Assembly (NCBI GenBank): GCA_937127245.1 | Contig: CAKZLU010000011.1 | Location: forward strand, 62,001 to 126,000 | Direction of reading: 5' to 3' | DNA: 64,000 nt | From: an uncultured Actinomycetes bacterium | GTDB taxonomy: Bacteria > Actinomycetota > Geothermincolia > Fen-727 > JACVIW01 | Shown here: positions 6,774 through 37,893 of the stretch, piece by piece | Numbering within the stretch: the stretch's first letter is position 1 | How the letters are laid out: each line of letters starts with the position of its first letter | The notes under the pieces: generated by a model | Databases searched by the model: none | What the model was told of the DNA's origin: nothing | Seen by the model: only the letters and a program-made list of their open reading frames with translations | Position numbers and translations under genes: made by a program

Positions 6774-9386
6774 CTAAACCTCCACTTGCTCCTCTTCGAG
6801 CGCTGGTTCGACCTGGAAAACTATCTCCCCGTCTTTCGCGTCAACAACCACATAATCGCCTTCCTTTATCTCACCGTTAAGAATTTGAAAAGCAAGCCGA
6901 TCCTGAATTTCCCTCTGGATGACCCTCTTGAGCGGGCGGGCTCCATATGTTGGGTCAAATCCCTTCTCAGCAAGCAAGTCTTTGGCCTCGTCAGTAAGAG
7001 AGATTCGTATCTTCCTATCCTCAAGGCGCTTCTCGAGCAACCGCGTCTGTATCTCCACTATCTTCCTGATTTCACCCTTGCCCAGAGGATTGAAAACAAT
7101 GATTTCATCAATCCTGTTAAGAAATTCGGGTCTGAATCTCTGTTTGAGCGCTTCCTGAACCCTCCTCTCCACTTCCTGTCTTGCGTCCAAATCCAGGGTT
7201 TCAAGCGAGTGGCTCCCGATGTTTGACGTCATTATTATGAGTGTGTTTTTGAAATCGACCGTTCTGCCGTGACCGTCAGTAAGACGACCGTCCTCAAGCA
7301 CCTGGAGCAGAATGTTGAAAACGTCGTCGTGCGCCTTCTCTATTTCATCAAGAAGCACCACCGTATATGGCCTCCTCCTAACCGCCTCGGTTAGTTGACC
7401 TCCCTCCTCATACCCGACGTAACCTGGAGGCGCACCGATGAGTCTTGAGACAGTGTGTTTCTCCATATACTCGCTCATGTCAAGACGAACCATAGCCCTT
7501 TCATCATCAAAAAGAAAATCAGCGAGCGCCCGGGCGAGCTCAGTCTTTCCAACCCCCGTTGGTCCAAGAAAAATGAAAGACCCCAAAGGTCGGTTAGGGT
7601 CCTGAAGACCCGCGCGTGCCCTGCGAATCGCATTAGAGATCTTTTCAATCGCGTGGTCCTGTCCCACCACACGGCTACGGAGCCTGTCTTCCATCTTCAC
7701 AAGTTTCTCCACTTCACCTTCCATCAGTTTTGAAACAGGGATGCCCGTCCACTTGGCAACAACCTCAGCGATGTCCTCCTCGTCAACTTCCTCTTTCAGC
7801 ATTCTTTTGTTTTTCTGTAGTTCAGCGAGTCTCGCGTTTTCGCTGGCGAGTTCTTTTTCCGCCTCTATCAAACTTCCATATCTTATCTCTGCCGCCTTCT
7901 CAAGGTCTCCGACTCTCTCCGCTTCCTGCTCTTCCATCTTGAGTCTTTCAATCCGTTCTTTGATTTCCCTGATCCTCGAGATCGCGTCCTTTTCGTTTTT
8001 CCAGTGGGTTAGAAGTTCATTGCTTTGCTCTTTCAAATCGGCAAGCTCTTTCTCAAGTTTTGCAAGCCTTTCCCTGCTCGATTCATCTTTTTCTTTCTTT
8101 AGCGCCTCTCTTTCTATCTCCAACTGCTTGATGCGCCTTTCCACCTCATCAACCTCAGTAGGCATGCTGTCTATCTCGATTCGCAATCTGCTCGCCGCCT
8201 CATCAACAAGGTCTATCGCTTTATCGGGCAGAAATCTGTCCGTAATGTACCTATCAGACATCACAGCCGCAGCAACAAGCGCGGAGTCCTTAATTCTCAC
8301 TCCATGATGAACCTCGTATCTTTCTTTAAGCCCCCTTAGTATCGAAATCGTGTCCTCAACCGATGGCTCCCTCACAATGATTGGCTGGAATCTCCTCTCG
8401 AGGGCGGCATCCTTCTCAATGTACTTACGGTATTCGTCAAGCGTGGTAGCGCCGATGCAGTGGAGTTCGCCCCTCGCAAGGGCTGGTTTGAGCATATTGG
8501 ATGCGTCAACGGCTCCCTCGGCGCCGCCCGCTCCAACCACAGTGTGCAGTTCGTCTATAAAGAGGATTATCTCGCCCTCAGACTTGCTGATTTCTTTGAG
8601 CAGCGCTTTGAGCCTGTCCTCAAATTCCCCCCTGTACTTAGTCCCTGCCACAAGTGCCCCGATATCCAGAGCGAGCAACCTTTTATTCTTAAGGCTTTCA
8701 GGAACGTCTCCGTTTACTATTCGCTGCGCCAGACCCTCGACGATCGCTGTCTTTCCCGTACCCGGGTCACCGATAAGGACTGGATTGTTTTTGGTCCTCC
8801 TTGACAGAACTTGGACCACTCTTCGTATTTCGTCATCCCTGCCTATGACAGGGTCAAGCTTTCCTCGTTTTGCCTCTCCCGTAAGATCGCGGGTAAATTT
8901 CTCCAAAACCTGATATTTTCCCTCGGGCTCCTGGTCAGTAATTCGCTGGGTGCCCCTGATGTCCGCGAGTGCTCTTAATACGCTATCATTGCTCACGCCA
9001 GCTTCCAAAAGAATCTGTGCCGCCGGTCCACCGGCATCAAGTATCGAAAGCAAAAGGTGCTCGGTGCTCACAAACTCATCTTTTAACCCCTGCGCTATCT
9101 CCCAGGCTTTATCCAGTGCCCTGTCCAGTCTTGTTGAAAGATACTGACGCGTAGCTCCCTGAACCTTCGGTCGCTTCGAGATCTCAGCCTGAAGCCTGTC
9201 CTCTATCATCTCAGGACGCGCTCCCACCTTCCGTAGAAGAGGTGGGACCACACCATCACTCTGCCTTATCAGCGACATCAAAAGATGCTCAACATCTACT
9301 TCCTGGTGGCTCATAGACTGGGCAAGCGCCTGCGCCTGACCAAGTGCCTCTTGAGCTTTTACTGTCATCCTTTCAGGATCGATCAT
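6774..9386 (-). CDS. clpB: ClpB disaggregase (Hsp100 AAA+ chaperone)
   Basis: ClpB extracts and unfolds aggregated proteins together with DnaK in the cytoplasm. At 870 residues it has the normal full length. The order is a double Clp N-domain (1-150), the first AAA+ module with Walker [14 protein letters not shown] near 205, a long coiled-coil M-domain (about 405-525, rich in E/K/R), and a second AAA+ module with [14 protein letters not shown] near 605. The M-domain separates it from the ClpC in this window. The ATG start has GGAGGG upstream. The gene is monocistronic and divergent from the MFS gene; I found no clear CIRCE or HAIR operator upstream. Confidence 0.96.
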
Positions 9387-36412: not shown

Positions 36413-37156
36413 ATGGCTATGGAAAAGAAAAGAGTGCTGCTCGTAGAAGACGACGAACTCATCAGCGAGACCATAATGAAAAGCCTCAGGCTTGAAGGCT
36501 ATGAAGTCGAACGTGCCAAAGACGGGGAAGAGTGCATGGAGAAAGTGAAAGAATCCCCGCCTGACTTAATTCTACTTGATGTCCTCCTACCCCAGGTCGA
36601 TGGGTGGGAAATCCTGTCGAGAATTCGCGATGACCCCACCGGAAGTGATATACCGATTATCATACTTACTGCGCTCGCGGATGAGGTATCCAAAATACAG
36701 GGCTTAAGGGGCGGAGCCGATGACTATGTAACCAAACCATTCAGCTCGCTCGAACTGATGGCAAGGGTTGAAGCGGTCCTGAAGCGAAGCGCCAGAAGAA
36801 TTTCCGCCGGCGCGAAGAGAAGTGTAAACCCGATTCCCGCAAGAAAGGGAGATAAAATAGTTCTGATAGACCCAGACACAATAGTGTTTATAAACATCCA
36901 GCGGGATTCAACTTTCATCCACACGGATGAAGGGAAATTTCTCTCGGACCACACGCTCGGGGAGTTGGAGAATGTGCTCGATAAGGAAAAGTTTTTCAGG
37001 GCTCATAGAAGTTACATCGTCAACCTGCGGCGCGTCAAGGAAATAACGAAGCACGGTACATCCACGTACGAACTGACAATGAACGACAATATAAATAGCA
37101 AAGTCCCGATGAGCAGGCGCCAGAGCATCGAGTTGAAAAAGCTTTTGAACATATAA
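36413..37156 (+). CDS. LytTR-family response regulator
   Basis: This is a DNA-binding response regulator of 247 residues. The receiver domain has LVEDDEL, LILLDVLLPQVDGW and VTKPFSS. The C-terminal LytTR domain (about 150-245) shows IVFINIQRDSTFIHTDEGKFL, FFRAHRSYIVNLRRVKEI and a final SRRQSIELKKLL. LytTR regulators bind pairs of short direct repeats and often control envelope or pilus genes. No histidine kinase is next to it; the upstream RsbRD-like protein is a possible input. The start may be either of two ATGs two codons apart. Confidence 0.9.
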   Translation: MAMEKKRVLLVEDDELISETIMKSLRLEGYEVERAKDGEECMEKVKESPPDLILLDVLLPQVDGWEILSRIRDDPTGSDIPIIILTALADEVSKIQGLRGGADDYVTKPFSSLELMARVEAVLKRSARRISAGAKRSVNPIPARKGDKIVLIDPDTIVFINIQRDSTFIHTDEGKFLSDHTLGELENVLDKEKFFRAHRSYIVNLRRVKEITKHGTSTYELTMNDNINSKVPMSRRQSIELKKLLNI

Positions 37157-37651
37157 AATCGACGCTGTTCAAAAAGACCACTTATCGTTCAAAGCGAAGC
37201 CGCCACCATTTTTTTACACCGATAGCCCATGTTTGGGTTGAATTTGCTCATCCCGAGTGCCAACATTATTTCTAGAGGTACCGCTTCTCATCCGACAGGC
37301 AACCGGTCTAATCCGGTTGACCCGGTCAAACGGTTGCCATCACCAATAAGGACAACCGGGTACGGCTCTGGGTTAAGTATTTGGACCACCCAAATATCCC
37401 CAAGAGTTGCCGCAATAAGGTCTGATACGCCGAGCTAGTCGGAACCCGGTTCCGAAGCCCGGTTGTCCTCCCCCATATAATATATGAACTGATTTGTTCA
37501 ACACTTCTGGTTGCTTGGCATTCATCCTGAAAAAAGACACGTAAGACAGGTAGAAGAAAAAGACATCGGGAAACAAGTTCAGAGAGGATAAATGTGCGGA
37601 CTCAGCCAAAAACTCACCCGGTCAAACCTGCCACACCTCAAGCCGAGAAGC
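37157..37651. other. Non-coding stretch between LytTR regulator and cooT
   Basis: About 495 bases; the two ORF-track entries here have no SD or sensible composition. Its central 170 bases hold a dense set of inverted repeats, listed separately. Confidence 0.5.
37299..37469. other. Dense hairpin array, possible structured RNA or repeat element
   Basis: At least five perfect inverted repeats fall in 171 bases. GGCAACCG/CGGTTGCC (37299/37331) encloses AACCGG-N6-CCGGTT. AGGACAACCGGG (37349-37360) pairs with CCCGGTTGTCCT (37458-37469). TATTTGG-N5-CCAAATA (37378-37396), CCGA-N5-TCGG and GGAACC-C-GGTTCC (37441-37453) lie inside the long pair. No match to a known riboswitch, SRP RNA, tmRNA or tRNA is apparent to me. 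Confidence 0.5.
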
Positions 37652-37837
37652 TCACTTTGAAATCACTATCTTATGGTCGAGGAAGGTGATTTCCTCGATG
37701 GTTCCTTTGACTTCTATCACTTCACCGATTATGTTTGTCAGACGTATGCTGTCTCCATCCGTCTCAACCAGGACAACGTCCTCCATGATAAGATTCTCGC
37801 CTTCCAGAGTTTTTAGAAACGCGTTTGACTCACACAA
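37652..37837 (-). CDS. cooT: CooT-family nickel-binding protein
   Basis: This small protein of 61 residues begins MCESNAFLKTLEG, the CooT hallmark, where the Cys after the start methionine helps bind Ni(II) at the dimer interface. CooT supports nickel delivery to carbon monoxide dehydrogenase. The ORF track begins ten codons earlier; TTG 37837 with GGAGG seven bases upstream gives the canonical N-terminus. The rest (MEDVVLVETDGDSIRLTNIIGEVIEVKG) matches the family's beta-barrel pattern. No CODH gene is in the window, so it may serve another nickel enzyme or a remote locus. Confidence 0.8.
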   Translation of the reverse strand: MCESNAFLKTLEGENLIMEDVVLVETDGDSIRLTNIIGEVIEVKGTIEEITFLDHKIVISK

Positions 37838-37893
37838 ATCAATACCTCCATTCCTGTTCAGGATCACCCAGGCTATATCCCAAAGTTCGGACC

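Follow-up and report, generated by a model that had tools for sequence, protein, structure and literature searches.

In the 64-kb window, the whole stretch of DNA analysed here, a REC-LytTR response-regulator gene (36413-37156, + strand) and cooT (37652-37867, - strand) enclose a gap in which a block of hairpins occupies positions 37299-37469. A sequence-only reading had described this gap as non-coding and had noted within 171 bases of it a cluster of inverted repeats, among them 12-base arms that enclose others. The gene positions agree with that description and the repeats are present: the 12-nt perfect pair (37349-37360/37458-37469) surrounds the TATTTGG/CCAAATA arms and those at 37439-37446/37448-37455, and a further inverted repeat (37298-37305/37331-37338) lies slightly 5' of it. 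The view that such repeats exceed chance is borne out by the folding energy of the 171-nt block, which is -71.6 kcal/mol compared with -49.8 +/- 4.4 kcal/mol for dinucleotide shuffles (z -4.97), none of 200 shuffles being as good. The two ORFs that overlap the block are attributed to chance, and the block is considered non-coding, because the lengths of the RNA in relatives differ by non-multiples of 3. The hairpin cluster is almost certainly the gene for a structured RNA; its functional unit spans approximately 37274-37475 (+ strand), somewhat longer than the block first reported. Comparison of the sequences of relatives established the structured RNA, its + strand orientation, its conserved position and the existence of duplicate short forms. 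The features of the locus are as follows.

36413-37156, + strand: REC-LytTR response-regulator gene; orthologues precede the RNA in relatives
37238-37269, + strand: predicted promoter, with TTGAAT at 37238-37243 and a weak -10-like stretch CAACATTAT at 37261-37269
37274-37297, + strand: predicted 5' end of the RNA, AGAGGTACCGCTTCTCATCCGACA, a strongly conserved leader that is near-identical in all long forms
37298-37338, + strand: 5' hairpin GGCAACCG/CGGTTGCC with a variable interior, reduced or absent in one relative (L019)
37350-37360, + strand: 5' strand of the closing stem P1, GGACAACCGGG; 11 pairs, 100% of cells paired
37363-37409, + strand: competing fold that buries the core, CGGCTC (37363-37368) with GAGTTG (37404-37409) and GGG (37370-37372) with CCC (37398-37400)
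37377-37387, + strand: 5' strand of P2, GTATTTGGACC, with U37380 bulged; from pairing and exchange tests
37378-37384 and 37390-37396, + strand: hairpin TATTTGG/CCAAATA within the competing fold; from computed energy
37388-37418, + strand: apical loop of ~31 nt closed by P2; from the alignment
37396-37413, + strand: 18-nt core ATCCCCAAGAGTTGCCGC (AUCCCCAAGAGUUGCCGC), invariant in long forms
37419-37428, + strand: 3' strand of P2, GGTCTGATAC; from pairing and exchange tests
37430-37442, + strand: P5 hairpin CCGA(GCTAG)TCGG; loop and stem covary in relatives
37458-37468, + strand: 3' strand of P1, CCCGGTTGTCC; from covariation
37469-37475, + strand: C-rich 3' tail and predicted 3' end; relatives have CCUCUCCCC here, and in short forms P1 is followed by UCCCCUU

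A terminator-like hairpin of its own (TTTTGAACA/TGTTCAAAA) closes the LytTR gene. The long form of the RNA, ~200 nt, consists of the leader AGAGGUACCGCUUCUCAUCCGACAGG, the 5' hairpin, P1, P2, P5, a conserved stretch CCCGGUUCCAAGG and the tail CCUCUCCCC; the leader is near-identical even in the long form without the 5' hairpin. Of the C stretches in the window RNA, the one in the core reads CCCC and the one in the tail CCUCCCCC. The + strand was assigned on the basis of G-U pairs in P1 and P2 that function on this strand only and of the -10-like boxes upstream. At the promoter position TTGA is invariant in all eight aligned relatives and is followed 17 nt later by an A/T-rich block and then by AGAGGTACC; a plain sigma-70 scan of the window returned no site. 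In short forms, TATAAT- or GATACT-like boxes lie ~10 nt before P1. These sequences suggest that the RNA may be transcribed from its own promoter. The stretch that separates the LytTR terminator from the RNA promoter (37157-37237) contains short blocks conserved in the order, some of them GCCCGCA-like, which are candidate operator sites.

Structure of the RNA

Two explanations of the repeats had been offered from the sequence, a structured RNA or a family of repeat elements built on a CCGGTT/AACCGG core. The former stood, since there is a second genomic copy and compensatory changes proved plentiful in P1 and P2 of the relatives. The latter did not: the element shared between copies is the 18-nt apical core, and CCGGTT cannot be a repeat core because one relative replaces the P1 sequence with compensated changes (GGGCGGTTAGG/CCTAACTGCCC).

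In the nine long forms, the 11 pairs of P1 contain no broken cell and six of them are changed on both sides. The structure as a whole surpasses all 500 shuffles of the nine long forms in paired cells, compensated pairs and covariation score. MAFFT alignments of mixed long and short forms misplace the P2 strands, and a covariance-model alignment was used instead; in this alignment, which itself leans towards the structure, P2 is 88.7% paired and five of its pairs are changed on both sides. In an exchange test on the "divergent" member set, the P2 strands of the same RNA pair with an average of -9.6 kcal/mol compared with -7.2 kcal/mol for strands swapped among members (p = 0.0018). For P1 of the short forms the same test also gives a difference, though a weaker one (p = 0.013). 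A UUUGG/CCAAA hairpin was considered as a conserved inner fold and rejected: it is broken in the short forms and its strands do not coevolve (p = 0.40, exchange test).

In the long forms the computed energy favours pairing of CAGCUC-GGG with the core, which is thus itself paired. A fold switch that gates the core in the long form is therefore possible on energetic grounds, but the strands of the competing fold hardly vary among long forms, so that sequence data cannot judge it.

Distribution of the long and short forms

When the window's own genome was searched with blastn for a second copy, the apical core was found to recur at one other place, C42:2051-2086, which matches only 37379-37414. 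There the hairpin structure around the core (C42:2068-2085) is shorter and has another closing stem. No long form departs from the core sequence, and no short form departs from it by more than one change. When as many as three mismatches are allowed, the core is found in 12 of the 13 genomes of the order and in none of 18 others of the class, and a sample of 397 genomes of the phylum contains no further occurrence; a reversed-pattern control gave near zero matches. A strict core pattern retrieved 11 contigs from ~85,000 species genomes, all titled Actinomycetota or Acidimicrobium assemblies.

Matches to the long form come from eight relatives within the order, with 88-93% identity across 84-127 nt, and from two others with 79-80%. 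The long form lies downstream of the orthologous LytTR gene in the window and in G005, G006, G008, G010, G012, G007, G002 and G003. In G004 the LytTR locus lacks it, and a short form close to tRNA genes is all that this genome contains. G001, of the same genus, is uninformative because it lacks both the RNA and a full LytTR orthologue. The short forms, ~90 nt long, retain P1, P2, the core and the UCCCCUU tail with entirely different stem sequences; they sit elsewhere than the LytTR locus and have no consistent downstream gene. In G008 (C122), two short forms on the same strand (L199:6300-6317 and 7234-7251), 934 nt apart, flank a small lipoprotein-like ORF. In G006, the same sequence, GAGTGGCGTCRGACGWTTTCGTTGYGTTGTG, directly follows the 3' end of both the long (L013) and the short (L030) form. 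This sequence, which belongs to an imperfect inverted repeat in the case of the long form, may be a small mobile element inserting next to the RNA.

A related-looking RNA in family f5

Family f5, outside the order and in the same class, contains another conserved element in the gap that follows the LytTR orthologue, the protein product of which is 47-51% identical. In this element a core, UAUCCCCCAUGAGUUUACCGGC (UAUCCCCCAUGAG), and a closing stem of 9 bp are accompanied by a hairpin whose loop has six C, and then by CCCCUUUU; the core contains CCCCC, and there is one C6 loop per RNA. A model of this RNA matches 14 f5 genomes, and in 13 of them the match lies no more than ~1.1 kb downstream of the LytTR orthologue on the same strand. 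Upstream of the RNA, TAAAG-N15/16-CCGA occurs in 14 of 14 cases, with a background expectation of 0.005 per site; we take this to be the promoter form of sigma-28/sigma-D (FliA, WhiG). The f5 model returned no match among the RNAs of the window's order, and local alignments between the two RNAs are weak (single-pair p 0.002-0.16). The f5 RNA shows too little variation for covariation analysis. Position and the fit of the cores nevertheless make a common ancestry of the f5 and window RNAs likely. Most f5 genomes contain a second, shorter and weak match to the model (e.g. G030:C234:855-912 and G014:C150:1615-1671), which may be another C-loop RNA or merely a similar terminator.

Comparison with known RNA families

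The claim that the element belongs to no known RNA class held when the 64-kb window was searched with Rfam 15, which gave nothing at gathering score. A permissive search near the element (to E 5) yielded only a chance miRNA match (E 2.6), and Rfam searches of the relatives gave no match. The 6C RNA (RF01066) was not found in the window (E 5), at the f5 loci (E <= 1) or in the own and sampled order genomes; nor does the window RNA have the two hairpins with at least six C per loop that define 6C. The 6S RNA (RF00013) was found in 0 of 13 genomes at E <= 1, in searches whose controls matched. In G017, away from the LytTR locus, a 6C-like sequence with a CCCCCCC loop (C15:8839-8906, L293) scores 35.5 bits, below the gathering score of 47.

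The window RNA resembles 6C/B11 in being a stand-alone small RNA of actinobacteria with two C-rich single-stranded stretches, and its f5 relative ends in a six-C-loop hairpin. Unlike 6C/B11, it has a long closing stem, an invariant 18-nt core, a length of ~200 nt (75 for 6C) and C stretches of four to five. With 6S RNA it shares its length of ~200 nt, its stand-alone gene and a long closing stem, but the conserved part is the apical loop instead of the central bubble of 6S. RNAIII of Staphylococcus aureus is a regulatory RNA with UCCC loops that is encoded beside the LytTR-type regulator AgrA. The window RNA is similar in its UCCC-type stretches and in the position of its gene beside a LytTR-type response regulator; unlike in the RNAIII/AgrA system, no peptide system was noted beside it, and the likeness is not based on sequence relation. 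The window RNA is best read, by analogy, as a new family of trans-acting C-rich small RNAs comparable to 6C/B11 without being a member.

Possible functions

The leading proposal, to which we give somewhat less than an even chance, is that the element encodes an independently transcribed, trans-acting + strand RNA of ~200 nt that acts by C-rich pairing at ribosome-binding sites. P1 would hold P2, which in turn would present the fixed ~31-nt loop; the core of the loop and the 3' tail would each offer a UCCCC-type single-stranded stretch. Pairing of these stretches with G-rich ribosome-binding sites would prevent the translation of several mRNAs, in the way that the C-rich loops of 6C/B11 act in mycobacteria. 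Since the competing fold of the long form buries the core, its availability could be gated, and the adjacent LytTR regulator may control transcription of the RNA. Pairing at ribosome-binding sites was placed first because each RNA has two C-rich stretches, because the f5 RNA has a six-C loop and because B11 of mycobacteria, which has two loops rich in C, represses by pairing with ribosome-binding sites (PMC10470900). Of the 49 gene starts in the window, 3-4 are closely preceded by AGGGG/GGGGA, a small count that is compatible with this proposal but not specific. The invariant core is much longer than a UCCCC seed requires. A perfect complement (G-U allowed) to 15 nt of the core was found in the 13 genomes of the order only in the RNAs themselves and in one isolated match in G004. 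The excess length and the lack of a conserved perfect complement imply another role for the remainder of the core, in contact with a protein or a ligand or in a tertiary fold.

A close second, tentative in its own right, is a protein-binding RNA whose invariant loop is recognised by a single protein, be it RNA polymerase, a ribosome factor or a regulator that binds RNA; the RNA would sequester or guide this protein in the manner of 6S- or CsrB-type RNAs. The core remains invariant while both stems change, unlinked copies have only the core and the overall plan in common, and the genomes contain no conserved extended antisense site. Against it are the missing 6S and Rfam matches, a core without the repeated short motif of CsrB-type sponges, and the C-rich tail and six-C loop of f5, for which a protein-binding RNA has no need. 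The long invariant loop could also suggest an antisense RNA that pairs through its whole core with rRNA or one conserved mRNA. This is very improbable, given the missing conserved complement in the 13 genomes and the duplex energies of loop, leader and tail with the rRNA operon sequence, which are no better than those of shuffled queries.

The constant position after the LytTR gene is what would be expected of a cis-acting element of a neighbouring gene, be it a riboswitch, an attenuator or a 3' UTR structure. Such an element is improbable, although less so than whole-core antisense pairing: the LytTR gene is closed by its terminator-like hairpin before the RNA begins, the next gene in the window lies on the opposite strand, and the short forms have -10-like boxes of their own without a consistent gene downstream. 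Least probable of all is a non-functional mobile repeat of the MITE or REP type, the palindromes of which fold by accident. Short forms do occur at unrelated sites, with two of them 0.9 kb apart in one genome, but there is a single long form per genome at one conserved locus, base changes in P1 are compensated, this genome has only two copies, and an invariant internal core with changing ends is the reverse of a MITE.

A broader and more speculative proposal, which we consider rather unlikely, is a class-wide regulatory module of uncultivated Actinomycetota in which a LytTR regulator would be combined with its own structured RNA. The promoter would have changed between lineages, being of the sigma-28/WhiG type in one family and of others in this order. 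The invariant 18-nt loop would be a new RNA recognition element, which a fold switch exposes or hides and which has spread through the genome on minimal short copies. The RNA adds to a lineage known mainly from metagenome assemblies a family that is absent from Rfam, supported by covariation and tied to a response regulator by synteny. Its core, the natural minimal short forms and the f5 RNA behind a sigma-28-type promoter provide a handle on what an invariant RNA loop recognises and a way to ask how the control of a small-RNA gene itself shifts over deep time.

Known phages and plasmids gave no convincing match to the RNA. Two IMG/VR contigs (L054:5235-5372 and L055:8709-8846) contain an exact 19-nt core with their own stems and CCCCUUU tails; these cores lie inside long ORFs, which are read in different frames. 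Kinship of the two sequences to the RNA is possible, compared with an estimated ~0.25 chance 19-mer matches expected.
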